Virus record (IMG/VR): IMGVR_UViG_3300022853_000048
Location: 1 to 37,359 of that record
Length of the DNA stretch: 37,359 nucleotides
Source of the DNA: a virus
Strand: one strand, 5' to 3'
The translations under genes were made by a program, and so were the position numbers. Under the pieces are notes generated by a model. It did no database searches. It was given only the letters and a program-made list of their open reading frames with translations, and had not been told where the DNA came from. Positions 3,281 through 14,125 of this stretch are shown piece by piece. Each line of letters begins with the position of its first letter. The first letter of the stretch is position 1.

Positions 3281-3592
3281 TTAGACTTTCCTTGGCAGGT
3301 CGTATCTCTTAACGAAATCCTTTACTGAGGACAGGTTTATGCCTGTAAGTTCCGTTATTTTATTATTTGACATGTCTTTAAGTTTCATATTGTTTATGAT
3401 TTTAGCTTTTTCGGGCCATTTATCAAAGGTAATTTTGGTCCTACCGCCTAACGAACCGCTTGCTTTGCCGTTGTCCCATGCTTTTTTCATGTCTTTTTTA
3501 AGCATGTACGGGTTTTTTTTGCCGTCAATTTTATTTTGTTTTATCCAAGCATCCAAATAGAGGGCTTGGTATTTTTCGGAATCCACCTTCAT
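3281..3592 (-). CDS. Putative HTH DNA-binding protein (103 aa)
   Basis: The start at 3592 makes an ATGA overlap with the upstream gene; a longer ORF to 3628 exists but reads deep into that gene. The N-terminal half is basic and helical (YLDAWIKQNKIDGKKN). The C-terminal 35 residues form a likely helix-turn-helix, MSNNKITELTGINLSSVKDF followed by VKRYDLPRK. This resembles small phage regulators that recognise DNA through a C-terminal HTH. It sits in the early-type operon between 3795 and 2992. The DNA-binding assignment comes from the HTH pattern only. Confidence 0.6.
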   Translation of the reverse strand: MKVDSEKYQALYLDAWIKQNKIDGKKNPYMLKKDMKKAWDNGKASGSLGGRTKITFDKWPEKAKIINNMKLKDMSNNKITELTGINLSSVKDFVKRYDLPRKV

Positions 3593-5005: not shown

Positions 5006-6901
5006 TCACATGGACTCGCCCCATGATGGTCCCATTTCAATGTCACATTTACTCGGGACTTCAAGTGGTAGTACATTCTCCATTATTCTAGCAATTTCTT
5101 GGGCCTCGTCAACATCTTTAACGGACATTGCTATTTCATCGTGGATTTGGATGAGCGGCAGCTTGCCTATCTTGTAGAGAGCCACCATTGCCTTCTTTGT
5201 CATGTCGGCAGCCGACGCTTGGATCAATCTGTTCAGGGCTTTGTACGTGTAAGCCCTCTTCAGGCGTGTGGTAGGCCCGTAGGCGTCCACAGCGTCCTTG
5301 TAAGACATGGCTTTGTTCATTGCGAACGTATCCGGCTCCCACATTTCAAAGCGGCACTTACGGCCTCCCAGTGAGCGTATAGCGCCCGCCGAAGATTTCT
5401 CGTTCAGCCGGTTCATGACGCCGGTCATCAGTCCTTTAACGAACGGGACGCGCTCGTGGTATTGTTTGACCAGTTTTTTGGCCTCTTCAACAGAGATGTC
5501 CAAGCTTTCGGCCATCTTATTCACGCCCATGCCATACATCAGACCAAGGTTGATGGTCTTTGCTTGCTTACGCGGGATGTTTGTCATCTCGGCAACCATG
5601 GTGTGGAAGTCAGTTGAGGGGTCGGTGTTGTACGCTTCGACAAAATCGGCCGCCCCTTCCAGCGGAATGCCGCGTGTTTTGCCATATACATGAGCGTAAT
5701 GGACCAAGATGCGCGGTTCTTGTTGCGAGTAGTCGATAGCCGCCCACTGGTCGCCTTCTTCTGGCAGGAACAAACTACGGATCATGGGACCAAGCTCTGG
5801 GTCGCGGGCCGGGATTTGTTGTAAATTAGGGTTGGACATTGATATGCGTCCCGAAACCGTTCCGCCATCATCTGACCGGATTTGGTTAATGTGCGAATGT
5901 ATGCGCCCATCGGATCGGCAGTGTTTTATTATTGTGTTGATGAACGTGCCCGACGTTTTGTTTAGGTTACGGGCTTCAACAACCAGCTTTGCCACGGGGT
6001 GCGGGTTTTCGTTCAGGAACTGTTTAGTAAACGACGGAGCGCCTTTTTCTGTTTTGGGGTATGATATGTCCAGCTTATCGAACGCTTTTGACAGCGATTG
6101 TGCGGCCCATATCTCCACATCCGTCCCCGTGATGCGTTTAACTTCCTTCATAACTTCTTTTTCGCGCTTCAGAAGCATGTCTCTGGTCCGTTCGACGCGG
6201 TTCACGTCTATTCGAACGCCGCGCATTGTCATATCGACAAGGCAGGGCAGGAGGTCGAGTTCTATGTTAGCAATGCTCCACAGGTCTTCTTTACCTAACA
6301 TTGTGGAAAAGTAATTCCAAAGCTCCAGTGTTAAGACGGCATCGACTTCGGCGTATGGCCCGACATACATTGCAGGCATCTTCCACATCTCGGCTTTTGG
6401 ATCGACGCCAAACTCCCGCGCTGCTTGCACGAGTGCTTTCTCGGACTTAGTTTTTCCAAGGTGTTCGTATGCCAGCGCGTTTAGGCTGTAGCTGAAACGG
6501 TTTTCGTCAAGCAGGGAGGCTACCAACATGGTATCGATGATGCGTCCGTTGACCGTGAAACCCATGCGTTTGATCCAGCCCAGATCGTATTGGGCGTTGT
6601 GCATGATTTTATCGGCAGGGCATTCGAATACTTTGCGCAGCCATTTGTTGACCTGTTTTTCGTCAAGATTACCGCCGCCAAGGTGTCGGATCGGAATGTA
6701 CCCTGACCAACCGTCTACGGCTACGGCATAACCCACGACTTCCCCGTCGCCTGTTGCCCAACCCGGACCATTCTTTTTCAGGTTCGGGTCGCGTGTTTCA
6801 ACGTCGATTGCAATTTTACCTGCGCCCGTAAGGTCTGGTAGTTCGATGGGCGGAACCCATTCACTTTTGGGGGCGAACATAGCCATTTGCAAATTTGCCA
6901 T
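5006..6901 (-). CDS. polA: DNA polymerase I (family A) with 3'-5' exonuclease
   Basis: Replicative phage polymerase of 631 aa without the 5'-3' exonuclease domain. The DnaQ-like exonuclease is intact: IAIDVET (D33, E35), HNAQYD (D106), YAEVD (Y183, D187). Polymerase motif A is AAIDYSQQEPR (D390), motif B is RKQAKTINLGLMYG (R444, K448, Y456) and motif C is IQIHDE (587-589). The position equivalent to E. coli Phe762 is Leu (L452), the variant discussed for viral PolA as slower or more accurate and linked to temperate-like replication. It is the last gene of the replication operon, followed by a strong terminator; its 5' end overlaps the preceding gene by 41 nt. Confidence 0.97.
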   Translation of the reverse strand: MANLQMAMFAPKSEWVPPIELPDLTGAGKIAIDVETRDPNLKKNGPGWATGDGEVVGYAVAVDGWSGYIPIRHLGGGNLDEKQVNKWLRKVFECPADKIMHNAQYDLGWIKRMGFTVNGRIIDTMLVASLLDENRFSYSLNALAYEHLGKTKSEKALVQAAREFGVDPKAEMWKMPAMYVGPYAEVDAVLTLELWNYFSTMLGKEDLWSIANIELDLLPCLVDMTMRGVRIDVNRVERTRDMLLKREKEVMKEVKRITGTDVEIWAAQSLSKAFDKLDISYPKTEKGAPSFTKQFLNENPHPVAKLVVEARNLNKTSGTFINTIIKHCRSDGRIHSHINQIRSDDGGTVSGRISMSNPNLQQIPARDPELGPMIRSLFLPEEGDQWAAIDYSQQEPRILVHYAHVYGKTRGIPLEGAADFVEAYNTDPSTDFHTMVAEMTNIPRKQAKTINLGLMYGMGVNKMAESLDISVEEAKKLVKQYHERVPFVKGLMTGVMNRLNEKSSAGAIRSLGGRKCRFEMWEPDTFAMNKAMSYKDAVDAYGPTTRLKRAYTYKALNRLIQASAADMTKKAMVALYKIGKLPLIQIHDEIAMSVKDVDEAQEIARIMENVLPLEVPSKCDIEMGPSWGESM

Positions 6902-7223
6902 TATCTTTTATTTCCTCAATAATTTCATCTACAGGGCGTTTGTCTCTTTCGACAAACTCTGACCCGAGGGCCGTGTACCCTGCTTTATCGATCCACGAAT
7001 CCTGATGGTCGATTGTTTCGATTAACCGGCTGGTTTTTACCCAGTCCATCATCAGGGCAATGTGAGCCGGGGTTAAGTACCCGTGGCTGTTGATTGCCCC
7101 CCGCATGATGACGTTCCATCCTTCCGCGATACGAGCATGATTATCGTAAGCATCACCATAATCTTTTGCCCGGTCCCCGTTAATCAGGGATTTTGCTGCA
7201 TCCAGCACTTCGTCTCGTTTCAT
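6861..7223 (-). CDS. DUF6378-like phage protein (120 aa)
   Basis: Resembles the small phage family with GDRAKDYGDAYDNHARIAEG near the N-terminus, followed by ALMMDWVKTSRLIE and DSWIDKAGYTALGSE. The family is all-helical and often sits in nucleotide-metabolism or replication cassettes. The conserved acidic residues and His suggest a MazG/HD-like helical metal-binding scaffold, but no activity is established. The ATG overlaps the stop of the coiled-coil gene as ATGA. The 3' end runs 41 nt into the polymerase gene in another frame. Family assignment is from memory of the motif pattern. Confidence 0.75.
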   Translation of the reverse strand: MKRDEVLDAAKSLINGDRAKDYGDAYDNHARIAEGWNVIMRGAINSHGYLTPAHIALMMDWVKTSRLIETIDHQDSWIDKAGYTALGSEFVERDKRPVDEIIEEIKDNGKFANGYVRPQK

Positions 7224-7396
7224 TTATCGCCCCTCATCCATTTAATGTCTGCCAGCAACGCCGATTTTTCTTTTGTTGCGGCCTCTAATGCTTGTGTGAT
7301 CCGCGCTATTTCACTGCGCTGCACGGCAATTTTAGATTGCAGGTTACTAATAGCTTTTTCCTGCGAGTTTTTCCCATCGATCACCCATTTAGCCAT
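7220..7396 (-). CDS. Small coiled-coil protein (58 aa)
   Basis: A 58-codon ORF overlapping its upstream neighbour as TAATG and its downstream neighbour as ATGA. After MAKWVIDGKNSQ the sequence is one continuous amphipathic helix with heptad-like hydrophobics (AISNLQSKIAVQRSEIARIT, then LEAATKEKSALLADI), predicting a coiled-coil dimer. No enzyme motif. Perfect coupling at both ends makes it a convincing gene; its role is unknown. Confidence 0.65.
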   Translation of the reverse strand: MAKWVIDGKNSQEKAISNLQSKIAVQRSEIARITQALEAATKEKSALLADIKWMRGDK

Positions 7397-7614
7397 TAGT
7401 GTTCCACCTGATTAACGTAGCCGCAGAACACCAGTTCTTTAAGTTCTTCATCAAACTCGAACTTTGCGGCGGGTTGCGCCAGATCAGATTTGTTTGGGTC
7501 GTTCCACATTTTTTTAGCGCGAGCTTCACTAAAGTCTACTACGCCCATTTTTTTATATTCAGCGCGTTTTGCTATTTCTTGCGCCTTCCAGTCGTCCCAT
7601 GTCATTTTCTTCAT
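7396..7614 (-). CDS. Hypothetical phage protein (72 aa)
   Basis: Charged, helical N-terminus (MTWDDWKAQEIAKRAEYKKM) and an acidic C-terminal part (FEFDEELKELVF) with no recognised domain. GGGAGA precedes the ATG at 6 nt. The start overlaps the stop of the upstream gene as ATGA, and the stop overlaps the next ATG as TAATG. It is a coupled member of the replication operon. The composition could fit a small adaptor of the polymerase or helicase, but nothing shows this. Confidence 0.65.
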   Translation of the reverse strand: MKKMTWDDWKAQEIAKRAEYKKMGVVDFSEARAKKMWNDPNKSDLAQPAAKFEFDEELKELVFCGYVNQVEH

Positions 7615-7955
7615 GTCTTCTCTCCCTTAAACAATTTACTTTCCCACTGGCACACTTCGTTAATGTGCGTGTGCCGTGTGGTAGGACGCACCATCCCAAC
7701 CTTTTCAACCCATCCCAACTTTCGCAGGGATGTCATCATCGCGCCCCAAACGTTGTGGTGATGTGGGTCAGACATACCCTGCGCTCTGCAAAAGGCACAA
7801 ATCTTACCACCTTCTACGAAATTGTGTTCCGACAGGTATTTTGCCGCATTTTGGTAATAGGCTTGTTTCCACTCGTCGTCTGCGTGGACATAAGCGCGGT
7901 CTATTTCAGCCTCAATAAATTCAAACCGCTGTTGTTCAGAGAGGGCTTCGGTCAT
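7611..7955 (-). CDS. Conserved phage protein, possible winged-helix/treble-clef (114 aa)
   Basis: Resembles a phage family with the core HHHNVWGAMMTSLRKLGWVE followed by a basic segment (MVRPTTRHTHIN) and a Trp. The pattern reads like a helix-turn-helix, similar to small replication or transcription accessory proteins. Residues 53-66 (CAFCRAQGMSDPHH) hold two Cys and adjacent His that may bind zinc. The N-terminal 40 residues are an acidic helix. The gene is coupled to both neighbours by ATGA overlaps, directly downstream of the UvrD-like helicase, so a replication-accessory role is plausible but inferred. Confidence 0.6.
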   Translation of the reverse strand: MTEALSEQQRFEFIEAEIDRAYVHADDEWKQAYYQNAAKYLSEHNFVEGGKICAFCRAQGMSDPHHHNVWGAMMTSLRKLGWVEKVGMVRPTTRHTHINEVCQWESKLFKGEKT

Positions 7956-9469
7956 AGGTCATAACTCCTTGTCGCGTCTTCTGGTTCAACAATATACAGG
8001 TTCTGTCGGGTTCGCGTGACCCCAACGTAGAACACTCGGTGCATATCATCTGGGTTAATCCGCATTGCATTGTCCGCAGCCGCACTTAGGTCCGTGAACA
8101 GTACAACGTTATCCGCTTCACCACCCTTTGATCCGTGGATCGTGGACGCTGTGATGCGGGGAATGCCATTAAACTTCTCGCCGCGCCGCAGCATTGCAGT
8201 GATATAAGCCCTGTCAATTTCGGGCAGCTTATCCATGGCCTCTGACCATATCATTGTGCCGTCGATTAGCAGCCCATGGTTAACCATCAAGTCTTGTATG
8301 TTAACCATTTCTTTGTCGTTGAGCCCGGGTATCTTTTTGTACCCGCGTGTAATGCGTGTTCCGGTAGACATGTAGCTGAAAATCTTGCGAGCCACGTCTC
8401 CAGATATCTCTTTTCCCTTGCGCATCTGCTCCCAGCCGTTGACCGCCTCAGATATCTTTTCGCTGATGGACCGGTGGCCGCGGTAGGTAAATAGGTGACC
8501 GTTTGATTTCAGGTCACTTGCTACGGGCTGTAGTTGATATCCTGCTTGGGACAGAATTAGCCAAGAGCCCTCGGCCATGTCCAAAGAGCTTATATGGCTT
8601 ATGCGCTGCACCTTACCGCGCTCGGGTTTTGGTTCATAGCGTTTGGGAAACCTCCGCGTGATGCGGCGCACGACATTCTCTGCTAAGTTATGAACGCTCT
8701 GGGGCACACGGTATGACTGAGATAGCGTCTCTGATCCACCGGGCAGGTTTATGAAGTGATCCACATCTGCTCCCGCCCATCGGTAAATGGCTTGATCGTC
8801 ATCCCCTGCGCAATACATCCGCTTGGAGCTATCGTCTAAGATATGAGCAATATCCCATTGCAGCGGGCTTAAATCCTGCGCTTCGTCTAGGAAGCACAAG
8901 TCAAATTCAGGTCGGAACGTATTTTTTCCAGAAACAAACTGATCTAACATGTCCGTAAAATCGTATAACCCTAAACCCTTTTTGTATTCGCGCAGGCATT
9001 TGTCCACGTAATTCACAGTATTCCAGTCGTCGTCCAGATTGCTCTGGTTATATTGTTCCCGAAGGTCTACTTTGCGCAACCTTGCCAAGTTAATCAGACC
9101 CAGCACCGGATCGTTGCTCGACACTACCGACGGCATGTCGTCGTCAAAGCTGGTGTTTTTTGCTCCACCTAGCGATATTCCAATCTTCTGGCCAAGCTCT
9201 CTAAAGTTAGCTTCCTGCATAACTTGCTCTGGACGGATGTCGGTCATGGTTAGGGCAAGCGAGTGCAACGTCCGGAAGTAAATCAGGTCTTTCTTGGCGT
9301 CCAGCCCGAAGCGTTCCGCAGCGCGTTCCTTGGCCTCGTTAGCCGCTTTACGTGTAAAGGCTAGGAAAGCAATACGGTGGGGGTGTGTGCCCGCAGCCAG
9401 AGCCTCGTCCACCATGTTCAACAGCGTGGTCGTTTTGCCTGTGCCGGGAGGTCCAAATATCCTAAACAT
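7952..9469 (-). CDS. UvrD/PcrA-like SF1 DNA helicase
   Basis: A 505-aa superfamily 1A helicase, shorter than cellular UvrD. Motifs in order: Walker A GPPGTGKT (6-13); Ia AFLAFTRKAANEA; II LDEAQD (194-199); III GDDDQAIYRWAG (222-233); IV QSYRVP (251-256); V STIHGSKGGEADNVV (442-456); VI YVGVTRTR (481-488). These couple ATP hydrolysis to 3'-5' translocation. The ORF can be read upstream to a TTG at 9535, but that extension is the other frame of the small HTH gene. The ATG at 9469 starts directly at the Walker A strand and overlaps the HTH gene by 8 nt. It lies between primase and polymerase genes, so it probably unwinds the replication fork or recombination intermediates. Confidence 0.93.
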   Translation of the reverse strand: MFRIFGPPGTGKTTTLLNMVDEALAAGTHPHRIAFLAFTRKAANEAKERAAERFGLDAKKDLIYFRTLHSLALTMTDIRPEQVMQEANFRELGQKIGISLGGAKNTSFDDDMPSVVSSNDPVLGLINLARLRKVDLREQYNQSNLDDDWNTVNYVDKCLREYKKGLGLYDFTDMLDQFVSGKNTFRPEFDLCFLDEAQDLSPLQWDIAHILDDSSKRMYCAGDDDQAIYRWAGADVDHFINLPGGSETLSQSYRVPQSVHNLAENVVRRITRRFPKRYEPKPERGKVQRISHISSLDMAEGSWLILSQAGYQLQPVASDLKSNGHLFTYRGHRSISEKISEAVNGWEQMRKGKEISGDVARKIFSYMSTGTRITRGYKKIPGLNDKEMVNIQDLMVNHGLLIDGTMIWSEAMDKLPEIDRAYITAMLRRGEKFNGIPRITASTIHGSKGGEADNVVLFTDLSAAADNAMRINPDDMHRVFYVGVTRTRQNLYIVEPEDATRSYDL

Positions 9470-9614
9470 CTTTAGACGTTTCACGTTTGTATATTTGTTG
9501 GACGCGCTGTTTTGAGATGCCGAACCACTTGGCAACCGCCGTCATGGTGACGCGCTGTTCATCGATGAGGCGCACAATCTCTGCATTACGCATAGCTTTT
9601 AAAACGTTCGTCAT
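9462..9614 (-). CDS. Small HTH protein (50 aa)
   Basis: A 50-codon ORF with a clear helix-turn-helix: EIVRLIDEQRVTMTAVAKWF then GISKQRVQQIYKRE. The pattern is like the sigma70 region 4 or resolvase-type HTH, with a recognition helix SKQRVQQIYKR. The start overlaps the primase stop as TAATG, and the stop (TAG at 9462-9464) overlaps the helicase ATG. The whole protein is one DNA-binding domain, perhaps a regulator or a helicase/primase loader that binds DNA. It was previously hidden by the N-terminal extension of the helicase frame. Confidence 0.7.
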   Translation of the reverse strand: MTNVLKAMRNAEIVRLIDEQRVTMTAVAKWFGISKQRVQQIYKRETSKDV

Positions 9615-11152
9615 TAGAACGGAGCCTCTTCTTGTGACCCAAACTGTGGCGGATCAATGTTGATATCCACATTGTCGAAAGATGGTATCTGCCAAACACG
9701 GACGGCACGGCCCTTAATCTTCATCACAAGGCTACTGCCGTTGATGTCCCGTAGGCGCTGGGCGATGCGGTGCGATTTATATTCGAAGAACTTATTCTTC
9801 TTCAGGAAGTTTTCGAAGTCTTTGAGCCGGAAGTACGTGATGTTCATCTCGTCATCGGTCCAAGGCTTGCGCAACAGGATTTCTTCTTTGTCCTGTGCCA
9901 CCTGTAGGTGGGCGCAAAACTCCTCCAAATAATCGTAGAACTGTCCGCTTATACTTGCGTCCTGTGCCACTTCGATGATGGCGCTTTCGTTATCCTTCAT
10001 TTCGCTCAACAAGGTGCTGATGCGGCCTTCCCATTGGGGCTTGGCAACTGAGCGCGGCATGAAGTTAAGCTGCTCCATACATGCTTTTTGGAACGTCATC
10101 TGGTTCATCAGGGCGTCAGTGTCCATTTCTAGCGGCTCGCCGTTAACGTCCATAAACCACACTGGTGGAGTAGAGTTATACTTTCGGAGGTTCGCGATTG
10201 TAGCCCCTGCTACCGCGGCTCCTATGCCGAACTTACGTGTCCGACATAGGTCTTTGTTGCAGTGCGAATTGATCGGGGAGTCAGAACATTTGTACGCGTA
10301 ATCTTTTCGCTCTACTTGTTTGGCAACAACGTTTACCTCTGAGAGTGGCAGTGGCGGAGATATGTACTCCATGTTGAAGCGCAGTATTTCGGACTCCCAG
10401 CTATCTGGGTACGCTTTCCGTAAGTAAACGCCGATGTTAAATAAACCATTGTTACGTCCTCCTTCGCTGATGCCTGATTTGCACAGGATTTGTAGACAGG
10501 GCGGACCGTCCTTGAGTAGGTTGGTTTCGCCGCCACCCACTACTTGTAGCTTAACAATTTGTTCAGGCGTTTGAACATGTTTTTCGTATAATTCAATAAA
10601 TTCTTCTAACGTCGCAGACGTGCCGTCATCTAAGAAGCCGTAGCGCAGACCGTCTTCATGGTCGTAGTACGGCAGATTAAGGAAGTTACCTACATCACCA
10701 CGGTCAAGGTGTAGCCTTATCTGCTTTGGGAATATTTCGCTTTCGCCATATCCGAGGGCCGCGGCTATCGATTGCAGGGCCTTCTGCATATCTTTGGCGT
10801 CTGTCCAATCGCTTGCGAACAAGAAGCAGTGCGCTCCGCCTGATTTAGAGCGGCACACTACCATTGGTATTTTTAGTTTACGGATTTTATTGACAAGAAC
10901 TTTGTGGTCTAGCGGGTACTGATCGATATCAATACACCCCCACTTACAGCAATTGTCTTCGTTAATCGGTATGATGCCTAGTCCTGCACCTTTGCCAGAG
11001 AGGTGGTTGTCCCACAACTTCTGGTCCCGCGGTTCCCGTAGGATGCCCGCTTTGCCTTTGGCTTTGCCACCGGCACCTGTGTTCTCAATTTTAAAGTAGC
11101 CGTAGGCCTCTTTTAAACCATCAAAGATGGCCATAAATTTATCTGCTGACAT
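9614..11152 (-). CDS. Archaeo-eukaryotic-type primase (AEP)/primase-polymerase
   Basis: A 512-aa primase of the AEP superfamily. Signature elements: the metal-binding DxD in CIDIDQYP (D75, D77), SKSGGAHCFLF (102-112, the sGGxH motif) and FPKQ..LHL (141-149) with GNFLNLPYY. A middle helical region like PriCT (PPCLQILCKSGISEGGRNNG) follows. A later Cys cluster (C289, C298, C303, with C219) is typical of bacterial/phage AEPs and would bind zinc or a metal cluster. The C-terminal 150 residues are of unknown fold. It would lay primers for the family A polymerase. A purine-rich GGGGG lies before the ATG. No DnaG-like or DnaB-like gene is present. Confidence 0.88.
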   Translation of the reverse strand: MSADKFMAIFDGLKEAYGYFKIENTGAGGKAKGKAGILREPRDQKLWDNHLSGKGAGLGIIPINEDNCCKWGCIDIDQYPLDHKVLVNKIRKLKIPMVVCRSKSGGAHCFLFASDWTDAKDMQKALQSIAAALGYGESEIFPKQIRLHLDRGDVGNFLNLPYYDHEDGLRYGFLDDGTSATLEEFIELYEKHVQTPEQIVKLQVVGGGETNLLKDGPPCLQILCKSGISEGGRNNGLFNIGVYLRKAYPDSWESEILRFNMEYISPPLPLSEVNVVAKQVERKDYAYKCSDSPINSHCNKDLCRTRKFGIGAAVAGATIANLRKYNSTPPVWFMDVNGEPLEMDTDALMNQMTFQKACMEQLNFMPRSVAKPQWEGRISTLLSEMKDNESAIIEVAQDASISGQFYDYLEEFCAHLQVAQDKEEILLRKPWTDDEMNITYFRLKDFENFLKKNKFFEYKSHRIAQRLRDINGSSLVMKIKGRAVRVWQIPSFDNVDINIDPPQFGSQEEAPF

Positions 11153-11171
11153 TATTGCCCCCGCCCGAAAG

Positions 11172-11200
11172 AAAAACGGCGGGGCACAATTACCCCGCCG
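11172..11200 (-). terminator. Rho-independent terminator/attenuator inside the replication operon
   Basis: A perfect 8-bp stem, CGGCGGGG (11177-11184) with CCCCGCCG (11193-11200) and an 8-nt loop, followed on the minus strand by TTTTT. Placed between the SSB-like gene and the primase, it would give more SSB-like and coiled-coil transcript than downstream replication enzymes. Confidence 0.85.
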
Positions 11201-11210
11201 CGAACACTAC

Positions 11211-11993
11211 TTAAAACGGTATATCGTTCGAAGTTTGTGTTGCTTCATCGTCCGAGTGTTTCACAACAACCTCACCAGCGTTAATGCTTGCTGCAAATTC
11301 TTTAGCGCGTGTATACATGTGTGCTTCGGACACGGGGCCCGCTACAGACATTTCCCACCCGTGCCATGACCCCTTGGAGTTTTCTTCTCCAATTGTTTTC
11401 AAGTCATAGACGTAGGCAAACCGCGGTGGTGTGAAGGGTCCTTTCGATCCCATCATTGAACGTGACGCCATGATGCTGTTCCACTTACGCGACTTTTTAA
11501 GCTGCGTAGATTTCATAGCAATTAGGGCTGTTTCCATTGAGCCGTCTTCCGAGAGCAAGACAACAAAGTGCTGGTGCGTTTCTTCGATGTATTCACCAGA
11601 GCCGTCCATTACATAGTCTTTGTTATCCTCCTTGGAGCGTTGCACCTCTGGGCGCTTGTCCGCGGGGGTGTAGATCGCGGTTGGCGCACCGCTCCCAACG
11701 CCCCGTGGAGCCCACTGGATGAACCTGCGCTGATACGCGCACGGGATGACCTGAATACCTGTCTTGCCCTTGTAGAGGGCTCCTGTGACGGTATTATAGA
11801 TGTCCCCCTTGCGGGCATCCTCATTAACGTCCAGTACCGGATCATTTCCAGACAGAACTTTTAGAAATGGCAGGGCAAGGTCTTCTTGACCCAAATCCTG
11901 TAATCCATTACCGGCGTCTTCTTCGAACATCGCAGGGTTAAACTCCACGATTTCCGCTGTTTCTTTTTTTGCAACTTCTTTTGACTGTGCCAT
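11211..11993 (-). CDS. Putative single-stranded-DNA-binding protein
   Basis: A 260-aa protein resembling the phage group with FLKVLSGNDP, then GDIYNTVTGALYKGKTGI and VIPCAYQRRFIQWAPRG. The acidic C-terminal tail ends in SNDIPF, the classic SSB tip that docks replication partners. The basic/aromatic core would bind ssDNA. The start at 11993 is preferred over the longer ORF because GAGGT lies 7 nt upstream, 2 nt after the preceding stop. A strong hairpin terminator follows, suggesting high expression relative to the primase. The OB fold itself cannot be confirmed by eye. Confidence 0.7.
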   Translation of the reverse strand: MAQSKEVAKKETAEIVEFNPAMFEEDAGNGLQDLGQEDLALPFLKVLSGNDPVLDVNEDARKGDIYNTVTGALYKGKTGIQVIPCAYQRRFIQWAPRGVGSGAPTAIYTPADKRPEVQRSKEDNKDYVMDGSGEYIEETHQHFVVLLSEDGSMETALIAMKSTQLKKSRKWNSIMASRSMMGSKGPFTPPRFAYVYDLKTIGEENSKGSWHGWEMSVAGPVSEAHMYTRAKEFAASINAGEVVVKHSDDEATQTSNDIPF

Positions 11994-11994
11994 A

Positions 11995-12576
11995 TTATTT
12001 ACCTCTCTTAATGACTGCGCGTTGACCAACATAAGCTCCGAATAATTCCATCGGAAACTCTTCTCCTGCCTCGCACCTTTCTTTCACAAACGCCCGTAGG
12101 GTCTGCGGGTGAATTTCGGTTTTCTGCGTAGGCACAAAACCTTCTTGTTCAGCAAAAGCTGAAAAAGCGTTGGCTTTATCGTCCTCGCCACGGCCGAACT
12201 GGCATAAGACAGTATTTTTAATAATGTCATCGTACCCGTTATCCCGTAGCCAGTCGTAGGCTTGCGGACGATTGTTTACCAGTATGGAGGCTCCATACGT
12301 TTGTTTGACCTGAACGGTAGAACCGTCATCCAAGGCAAACGAAGATATGCCTATTTCTGCAAGCATCGCAGGCATGTCTTCATCCGTGAACTTCAAAAGC
12401 TCTTTCTTCAAACTCTTGGCTAATTGCTCAAGGTTTTCAATCTGTGCTTCATGGTCACGGATTCTTCTGGCCAACTCCGCCACCGTTTGGAGGCCTTGTT
12501 GATCTATCTTTTCGACAGAAGAGGCGATAGTGTCCTCAAAATCTTCTTCCATCATTTTTAGTACGTCGTCACTCAT
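11995..12576 (-). CDS. Phage coiled-coil protein of unknown function (193 aa)
   Basis: First gene of the minus-strand replication operon, with AAGGAG seven nt before the ATG. Residues 1-65 form a long coiled coil (RRIRDHEAQIENLEQLAKSL). A mixed domain follows (DMPAMLAEIGISSFALDDGS, QVKQTYGASILVNN) and then a helical C-terminus (HPQTLRAFVKERCE). This is a common companion of SSB-like genes in marine and T7-like phages. It probably partners the SSB-like protein, whose gene starts 2 nt after its stop, but its role is not established. Confidence 0.65.
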   Translation of the reverse strand: MSDDVLKMMEEDFEDTIASSVEKIDQQGLQTVAELARRIRDHEAQIENLEQLAKSLKKELLKFTDEDMPAMLAEIGISSFALDDGSTVQVKQTYGASILVNNRPQAYDWLRDNGYDDIIKNTVLCQFGRGEDDKANAFSAFAEQEGFVPTQKTEIHPQTLRAFVKERCEAGEEFPMELFGAYVGQRAVIKRGK

Positions 12577-12614
12577 TCCGAGTCTCCTTCGTGGTTAAAG
12601 GCACCTATCGGGCC

Positions 12615-12642
12615 TTGACAATTACAGATAATATCTTATACT
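12615..12642 (+). promoter_or_regulatory. Plus-strand sigma70-type promoter (half of symmetric pair)
   Basis: Consensus TTGACA (12615-12620), 16-nt spacer, TATACT (12637-12642). It drives the SNF2-like helicase, whose ATG is 35 nt further on. It overlaps head-to-head with the minus-strand promoter. Confidence 0.75.
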
Positions 12643-12655
12643 CTGCACTTGTCAA
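12628..12655 (-). promoter_or_regulatory. Minus-strand sigma70-type promoter (half of symmetric pair)
   Basis: On the minus strand TTGACA (12650-12655), 16-nt spacer, TATTAT (12628-12633). Both -35 and both -10 boxes are centred on 12635, and CTTGACAA/TTGTCAAG form a perfect outer inverted repeat. It drives the replication operon starting at 12576. Confidence 0.75.
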
Positions 12656-12676
12656 GCAGTTTTTAAGGAAAATAAA

Positions 12677-14125
12677 ATGCGTGGATTTGATTACAAGACC
12701 AATCCGTATGACCACCAGAGAAAAGCGTTAGAAGCTTCGTGGGCCGAGGAGTATTATGCACTGTTTATGGAGATGGGAACAGGTAAAACCAAAGTTGCTA
12801 TTGATACCATGGCGGTTCTTTACGAGGCTGGCAAGATCAATGCGGCTTTAGTCGTTGCGCCCAAAGGGGTTTATGACAACTGGGTCCAGAACGAAATCCC
12901 CGCGCATTTACCGGACCGGATCGAACGAACCTTGCTGCGTTGGACCCCCGCTAAGACAAAACGTATGGAAATAAACTTGAAAGACTTTATTGTCGGGGAC
13001 CTTAACGGCATTAAAATATTTGTCATAAACATAGAGGCGTTCTCTACGTCTCGGGGTACAGATGCGGCAACGGCCTTCCTGTACCAAAATCCCAACAATA
13101 TTGTGATAGTGGACGAAAGCACCACCATCAAAAACCGCAAAGCCGCGCGGACAAAAAACATTGTTAAGTTGCAAGAGTATTCAAAGTACCGCCGCATCCT
13201 GACAGGCTCCCCTATTACTAAGAGCCCCATGGATTTGTTCAGCCAATGCGATTTTCTTAAGAACAAGGCGCTGGGGTTTAACAGCTACTTTGCTTTTCAA
13301 GCGAGATACGCAAATATCCAGCAACGGACCATGGGGCACCGCAGTTTTCAACAGATCGTAGGATACCGCCGGTTAGACGAACTTTCGGAAAAGTTAGACA
13401 CTTTTAGCGACAGGGTTTTGAAACAGGATTGCTTAGACCTACCCGAAAAGGTTTATGTCCGTCGGAACATAGAGTTTACTCCCGAACAAAAGAAACTTTA
13501 TACGCAGATGAAGAAGCTGGCGTTAGCAAAGCTTGAAAGCGGGGAGCTTGCCACAACGGCCAGTGTCCTGACGCAGATCATGCGCCTGCAACAGATATGC
13601 TGCGGGTTTCTAAAACCCGACGATGGCGAAATAGAAACCATTCCAAGCAACCGTTTAAAAGAATTGTTGGAACTTTCTGACGAGGTTCAGGGCAAAGCTA
13701 TAATCTGGGCCACTTACACGCACGACATCTTGCGTATTGAGGAAGAGTTAAAGCTCCGGTTTGGACCGGACTCGGTAGCCACTTACTACGGCGGTACGCC
13801 ACAAGATCAACGCCAAGAGATCGTCACACGGTTTCAGGACAAGGCTGACCCCCTGCGGTTCTTTGTTGGTCAACCGCGAACCGGTGGTTACGGCATTACC
13901 TTGACGGCTGCCAACACCGTGATTTACTTTTCTAATAGTTACGATCTGGAGATTAGGTTGCAATCCGAGGACCGCGCACACCGGATCGGGCAGACAAACA
14001 AGGTAACTTATATTGATATGGTTTCGCCCGACACCATCGACGAAAAGATATTGCAGGCGTTGCGCAGTAAAATTGATATTGCGGGGCAGGTTTTAGGTGA
14101 AGACGCAAAGGACTGGTTGAAATAA
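12677..14125 (+). CDS. SNF2-like SF2 helicase/ATPase
   Basis: A 482-aa SF2 helicase of the SNF2 group. Motifs: MGTGKT (33-38); Ia LVVAPKGVYDNW; II VDEST (145-149, DEST in place of DEAH); III LTGSP (175-179); IV and V in WATYTH and GQPRTGGYGITLTAA; VI QSEDRAHRIGQ (429-439), the hallmark of SNF2 proteins. SNF2 ATPases translocate on double-stranded DNA and remodel nucleoprotein. Phage copies often stand in for the replicative helicase or strip proteins. AAGGA precedes the ATG. It is plus-strand, with its own promoter paired with the main replication promoter, so both halves should fire together. Confidence 0.92.
   Translation: MRGFDYKTNPYDHQRKALEASWAEEYYALFMEMGTGKTKVAIDTMAVLYEAGKINAALVVAPKGVYDNWVQNEIPAHLPDRIERTLLRWTPAKTKRMEINLKDFIVGDLNGIKIFVINIEAFSTSRGTDAATAFLYQNPNNIVIVDESTTIKNRKAARTKNIVKLQEYSKYRRILTGSPITKSPMDLFSQCDFLKNKALGFNSYFAFQARYANIQQRTMGHRSFQQIVGYRRLDELSEKLDTFSDRVLKQDCLDLPEKVYVRRNIEFTPEQKKLYTQMKKLALAKLESGELATTASVLTQIMRLQQICCGFLKPDDGEIETIPSNRLKELLELSDEVQGKAIIWATYTHDILRIEEELKLRFGPDSVATYYGGTPQDQRQEIVTRFQDKADPLRFFVGQPRTGGYGITLTAANTVIYFSNSYDLEIRLQSEDRAHRIGQTNKVTYIDMVSPDTIDEKILQALRSKIDIAGQVLGEDAKDWLK

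Follow-up and report, generated by a model that had tools for sequence, protein, structure and literature searches.

What does a 41-bp stretch do in the gap between two diverging sets of phage replication genes, and does its symmetry carry a meaning of its own? The stretch lies at positions 12615-12655 of the viral record IMGVR_UViG_3300022853_000048, analyzed here over its whole length of 37,359 nucleotides (hereafter the window), and an earlier note had described it as a perfectly symmetric bidirectional promoter that might also be recognized by a dimeric regulator. Inspection of the sequence reveals two opposed and overlapping promoter sequences of the sigma-70 type, each with 11 of 12 matches to the consensus. 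The elements of this core are as follows.

12615-12620, plus strand: -35 box of the plus promoter, TTGACA (from the sequence and the column conservation in relatives)
12637-12642, plus strand: -10 box of the plus promoter, TATACT, spacer of 16 nt (from the sequence)
12650-12655, minus strand: -35 box of the minus promoter, TTGACA (from the sequence and the column conservation in relatives)
12628-12633, minus strand: -10 box of the minus promoter, TATTAT, spacer of 16 nt; TAATAT in many relatives (from the sequence and the relatives)
12614-12621, either strand: left arm CTTGACAA of an 8-bp inverted repeat; in the predicted minus RNA it forms +1 to +8 (from the sequence, the start being placed from the -10 position)
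12649-12656, either strand: right arm TTGTCAAG of the same repeat, also +1 to +8 of the predicted plus RNA (from the sequence, the start being placed likewise)

The coordinates of the boxes, the 16-nt spacers and the outer inverted repeat reported previously all proved correct when the sequence was inspected again. The repeat CTTGACAA/TTGTCAAG (12614-12621/12649-12656) is exact, its arms being simply the two CTTGACAA -35 regions. Read along the plus strand, the boxes come in the order -35 (plus), -10 (minus), -10 (plus), -35 (minus), with each promoter lying inside the other. It is also true that all four boxes share one centre, as had been stated, but this adds no evidence, because equal spacers on both strands force it arithmetically. 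Nor does perfect symmetry stand as a feature in its own right: the -10 boxes, side by side and 3 bp apart without overlap, differ in sequence (TATACT and TATTAT) and are not symmetry mates, and the symmetric positions outside the -35 boxes are complementary only to the degree expected from their columns (see below). The independent coincidence is the overlap of two near-consensus promoters, not their common centre.

This overlap exceeds chance. Of 400 dinucleotide-preserving shuffles of the whole window, two produced an overlapping divergent pair in which each promoter scored at least 11/12 (0.005 per shuffled window). When the threshold was lowered to at least 10/12 each, the window contained two such pairs against a shuffled mean of 0.11. 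The pattern TTGACA-N{20,40}-TGTCAA occurred once in the window where 0.04 were expected. The second, weaker overlapping promoter-like pair (10/12 each) is found at 3367-3426.

The core sits in a gap of 100 bp between a helicase gene on the plus strand and a DUF7307 gene on the minus strand. Matches to phrog and Pfam families bear out the claim that an SNF2 helicase arm is joined here to a primase/polymerase arm, and comparison of the 5-kb neighbourhood with annotated phages gave no nucleotide match. Two short motifs in the list below are likely ribosome-binding sites.

12677-14125, plus strand: SNF2-type helicase gene, the plus arm (phrog_62, 3.5e-127; PF00176)
12665-12669, plus strand: AAGGA, likely ribosome-binding site of the helicase gene (from the sequence)
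12584-12589, minus strand: AAGGAG, likely ribosome-binding site for the DUF7307 gene that heads the minus operon (from the sequence)
11995-12576, minus strand: DUF7307/Pam3 gp33-like gene, first of the minus operon (phrog_2378; PF23984, 5.7e-33)
5006-12032, minus strand: rest of the minus operon downstream of its first gene, small genes included
11211-12032, minus strand: Pam3 gp34-like gene of the minus operon
9614-11152, minus strand: AEP primase of the minus operon
7952-9535, minus strand: UvrD-like helicase of the minus operon
5006-6901, minus strand: family A DNA polymerase (PolA) of the minus operon

From the positions of the boxes, transcription would start at about 12649 on the plus and 12621 on the minus strand, 28 bp apart. 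Each -35 box would thereby double as approximately +2 to +7 of the opposite RNA, and both RNAs should begin UUGUCAAG.

Conservation among near relatives

The earlier note had proposed the aligned intergenic regions of relatives as a check, with loss of symmetry as the contrary outcome. We have used the helicase and the minus gene as queries to collect 160 viral-contig loci of the nearest group (clade A), which together with the window provided 161 upstream regions. The layout is kept in 155 of these 161 regions, in 65 distinct forms; some loci come from the same contigs and region counts are not counts of independent phages, hence the use of distinct cores or representatives in what follows. 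The distinct cores were mostly 41 bp long (59), with three of 48 bp, two of 39 bp and one of 40 bp. Throughout the 59 cores of 41 bp there is almost no variation in either set of -35 columns; conservation also holds for the -10 columns, and the spacer columns vary. The plus -35 reads TTG in 59/59, followed by A in 57, C in 57 and A in 59, and on the minus side GTCAA is found in 58-59/59, the last base of the hexamer being A in 46 and T in 13. The plus -10 box slides by 2 nt among relatives, i.e., the spacer is 16 or 18, with its final T at 12642 in 27 cores, at 12644 in 31, and at either position in 57/59. Many of the clade A plus -10 boxes have no T at position 6 at spacer 16 and require spacer 18. 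The core also persists further out, as an additional query with a distant clade A helicase retrieved more cores, including those of the basal loci L417-L420, in which the inner sequence is strongly changed and the length is still 41 bp.

A different explanation is that only one promoter is real and that the opposite boxes are fortuitous or kept for another purpose, for example as the 5' end of the other RNA. In the opposite predicted RNA each -35 box is indeed among the first bases to be transcribed and could be preserved for that reason, and in two loci (L028 and L033) the plus -35 is damaged (TTGCGA). Against this, the genes on both sides begin directly outside the core and need a promoter, and correctly spaced -10 boxes are found on both strands. 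Within 32 clade A representatives (none more than 90% alike to another of its geometry class), a -10 with A2 and T6, at least 4/6 matches and a spacer of 16-18 was present on both strands in 72%, versus 3% after shuffling of the inner sequence, a contrast that is not to be read as a probability, given that such shuffles ignore kinship. Even with spacers of 15-19 allowed, a -10 of this kind was absent from the plus strand in 5/32 and from the minus strand in 5/32. We regard a single functional direction as very unlikely.

The location within a replication module, the AT-rich centre and the inverted arms might also suggest a replication origin or some other DNA structure in place of a promoter. 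This reading appears extremely improbable: the arms are exactly the -35 consensus, conservation inside the core tracks the -10 boxes and not the inner symmetric pairs, and pattern searches of the window detected no second copy of the core motifs nearby.

Several natural variants depart from the common form. In the 48-bp cores the right half is longer by 7 bp; both -35 boxes are kept, and a minus TATAAG is present at spacer 16. In the six regions without the core (L031, L036, L037, L039, L040, and L042) the helicase gene has moved behind a UvrD-like gene; the L031-type genome retains the core upstream of the minus operon despite this relocation, next to a reading frame of only 23 codons on the other side. 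Two loci, L077 and L073, have the inner core mirrored inside a fixed 41-bp frame, with identities to the common core of 21/29 and 18/29 as reverse complement and of 10 and 8 in the forward sense; shuffles equalled the mirror match in 0 and 11 of 20000 trials, respectively, counts that are likewise not probabilities given the kinship of the phages. The mirrored inner core was also seen in their kin upstream of the helicase (L073-L075, L077, L342-L345, and L359), as if inverted between the 8-bp arms. Since the inner core can be mirrored in this manner, either half can serve either direction.

All in all, the pattern of conservation suggests that the core is quite probably an overlapping divergent promoter pair for the housekeeping (sigma-70-type) RNA polymerase of the host. 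HTVC027P, a relative belonging to clade C (see below), is reported to lack its own RNA polymerase and to use the host enzyme throughout, in the section of the source used here (PMC12753301). A search of the window's record for the T7-like RNA polymerase family gave no match, and the control genomes likewise gave none, which leaves the search uninformative.

Distant relatives and the operator question

In order to place the core within a wider group of phages, a helicase tree was built with 78 representatives of 328 proteins (the window, L001-L080, L171-L250, and L251-L421, leaving out the minus-gene loci L091-L170 and dropping proteins below 440 aa) and drawn from its midpoint root. Three proteins with too little upstream DNA were left unlabelled. 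The label 'none' marks, in the case of L031, the moved-helicase type, and in the clade B loci L175, L216, and L228 a pair that is present further upstream when 260 bp are searched. Clade A groups with clade D (DSL-LC04-like), and clade B (023Pt_psg01-like) with clade C (HTVC027P-like).

In clade B, with a type helicase sharing 54% identity with that of the window, TTGAC[AT]...GTCAA was found in 78/80 loci, the two misses both being contig ends, and 42 of the 44 distinct forms of the pair measure 37 bp. The plus strand has mostly TATAAT at spacer 19 or TATATA at 17. Minus -10 boxes at spacers 16-18 were no better than in shuffles (22% versus 26%, A2/T6 required), and the best minus match lies mostly at spacer 13, which is too short for sigma-70. 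The minus -10 of clade B is thus unconvincing, and the right arm may have some other role there. Clade C phages have TTGACT beside the minus start codon and lack the right arm, a single-armed state that fits the one-direction alternative; the exception is L334, sister to the rest of the clade, with a 37-bp pair. Clade D is without the pair and has mostly a palindromic AGTGTACACT, which reads TACACT on both strands. In most DSL-LC04-like phages (L251-L261) this AGTGTACACT is located ~60-70 bp upstream of the helicase match. Its sequence makes it a candidate bidirectional promoter with a shared -10 at the same crossroads, closer to the type known from E. coli. The stretches of HTVC023P, HTVC027P, and DSL-LC04 themselves that we looked at do not contain the TTGACA/TGTCAA pair. 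Judging by these sequences the layout is characteristic of clade A and retained in part in clade B without being universal, and since clades C and D are without the pair (L334 apart), the device is inessential to the arrangement of helicase and replication operon.

The persistence of both arms raises the possibility that CTTGACAA/TTGTCAAG is primarily an operator, its half-sites read by a dimeric regulator of phage or host origin, and that the promoters are secondary. In favour of this explanation, both arms are nearly invariant, their spacing is 41 bp in 59/65 clade A and 37 bp in 42/44 clade B distinct cores, and clade B keeps its 37-bp pair though without a good minus -10. Besides, the window encodes an AlpA/HTH_17-like protein (2521-2943), and among the matches listed in a phage-wide scan two unrelated viral contigs, L441 and L500, have the pair around a single promoter in two or three copies per contig. 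The conserved arms, however, extend no more than one or two bases beyond the -35 hexamer, and the length is loose in clade A (39, 40, 41, and 48 bp). Moreover, a pattern search found no second copy of CTTGACAA on either strand of the window, and with a single pair no regulon is visible there.

A further count concerned the dyad itself. Across 27 representatives of clade A and 21 of clade B, the symmetric positions that lie outside the -35 boxes were complementary about as often as the column compositions predict, and this speaks against recognition of the dyad by a dimeric regulator. Conservation of dyad symmetry beyond the promoter hexamers was therefore absent from these counts, save for one flanking pair next to the hexamers (C and G in clade A), complementary in 24/27 clade A versus 2/21 clade B representatives. 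The suggestion of the earlier note that a dimeric regulator might recognize the dyad is accordingly left unsupported in clade A, where nothing in the sequences indicates that the dyad as such is recognized, and the operator candidate was rejected for this clade; as the main explanation of the core it is unlikely.

Two observations touch on regulators and on similar pairs elsewhere. The AlpA/HTH_17-like product of the minus-strand gene at 2521-2943 is a small DNA-binding protein (PF05930, 3.2e-05) and by its sequence a candidate regulator of the phage; its gene has a promoter-like site of its own, TTGACA-18-TATAGT, at 2988-2959. The phage-wide pattern scan produced at least 84 matches (the tally of their lengths is that of an arbitrary sample), and among those listed, unrelated viral contigs have 40-41-bp TTGACA...TGTCAA pairs round a promoter of a single direction, with the downstream arm approximately at the start site, a finding that counts against the two-way reading of the core. 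The pairs are located at 9414-9456, 11041-11082, and 11170-11212 in L441, at 183-224 and 345-386 in L500, and at 950-991 in L438.

A conserved hairpin in the predicted minus leader

Strong conservation extends to the bases lying between the core and the minus gene, and these contain a further element.

12598-12616, minus strand: hairpin with a bulge at 12603, close to the 5' end of the leader predicted for the minus RNA; AAGGCCC-loop-GG-U-GCCUU (from covariation and folding)

The hairpin begins at about +6 of the predicted minus transcript, just past the predicted start. Along 43 distinct leaders all 301/301 pair cells are standard pairs (100%), and pairing falls to 35-66% when the partners are slid by 1-3 columns. 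Three of the seven pairs have compensatory changes (G-C to A-U or C-G; C-G to G-C or A-U), where shuffles gave 1.1 on average and 2/500 of them reached as many. The fold energy by itself is not unusual (z -0.66), so the case for the hairpin rests on covariation. A covariance model of the leader matched the window once and six long clade A records once apiece, and over the 33 loci searched it rose above noise solely at the leader site, the weak extra matches being at noise level; it was not found in 023Pt_psg01. We have also considered a repeated regulatory element and rejected it, leader and core each being single-copy in the window and the leader occurring once in each of the six long records. 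The plus leader is short, with no unusual structure. A role of the hairpin in protecting the 5' end of the mRNA or in translational control appears plausible. A comparison with Rfam gave no match for it, the only hit lying elsewhere in the stretch with an E-value of 8.8, and this conserved RNA element without an Rfam match is worth a follow-up of its own.

Proposed working and known systems

Under the preferred reading of a divergent promoter pair, the plus side would produce the helicase mRNA and the minus side the mRNA of the replication operon, opening with the conserved hairpin. As the promoters are nested within the same 41 bp, a second polymerase should find no room while one is bound. 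With a full-consensus -35 box on either side, the site should be highly occupied and transcription in each direction should restrain the other; this mutual restraint would link the output of helicase to that of the replication operon with no dedicated regulator involved. We infer such competition from the geometry and from published bidirectional promoters.

A bolder version of this scheme holds that occupancy alone sets the balance between helicase and operon, that the core can be mirrored as a unit without loss, and that the hairpin marks one of two otherwise identical 5' ends for separate control. The mirroring in the L073/L077 lineage would then have arisen possibly by template switching between the arms. 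We advance this regulator-free device tentatively and consider it rather doubtful.

At the level of sequence the core belongs to the broad class of overlapping divergent promoter pairs, with opposed promoters, overlapping -35 to -10 spans and a gene after each. Divergent phage promoters of the lambda PR/PRM type, which are not known to be nested in this way and are governed by repressors at the lifestyle switch, resemble it in controlling two transcription units, whereas here the promoters are nested within one another.

The bidirectional promoters of E. coli and Salmonella described by Warman, Grainger and colleagues offer a close comparison in the parts of the reports drawn upon here, with one short stretch containing two opposite promoters (PMC12825309, PMC10268837). 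The likeness lies in a single short stretch that serves two directions between divergent genes, a location reported for 24% of the E. coli bidirectional promoters (PMC12825309). Those promoters share their -10, with starts mostly 18 and also 10 or 23 bp apart (PMC12825309, PMC10268837), whereas the -10 boxes here are adjacent (12628-12633 and 12637-12642) and not shared, placing the core outside the narrow shared -10 type. Similarly, the definition of a bidirectional promoter calls for divergent starts 7-25 bp apart (PMC10268837), while the starts predicted here from the box positions are separated by 28 bp. According to PMC12825309, opposing polymerases cannot bind a bidirectional promoter together and competition matters at high activity. 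The five E. coli examples tested had low basal activity (PMC12825309, PMC10268837); both -35 boxes here are, in contrast, full consensus, which makes competition likelier than at those weak examples.

The Pc/Pr promoters of pLS20 are likewise divergent and coincide or overlap, the polymerase itself acting as the switch since it cannot bind both, in the part of the account consulted, which contrasts them with promoters of the lambda PR/PRM type (PMC4207663). In that system promoters of unequal strength work together with a DNA loop and a tetrameric regulator, which is encoded on one of the two sides (PMC4207663), whereas here the two promoters have similar scores and neither neighbouring gene resembles a regulator. 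Our literature search, which covered its sources in part, found no description of the core element, and bidirectional promoters are described as hardly studied in the portion of PMC12825309 used.

The core is a real and conserved promoter-like pair, ordinary in kind, and unusual for how neatly it is nested and for its wealth of natural variants. It appears that this group of phages keeps a two-way promoter at its replication crossroads, and the natural variants (the slid -10, the 7-bp insertion, the mirrored core, the arm lost in sister clades and the moved helicase) make its spacing rules directly testable.
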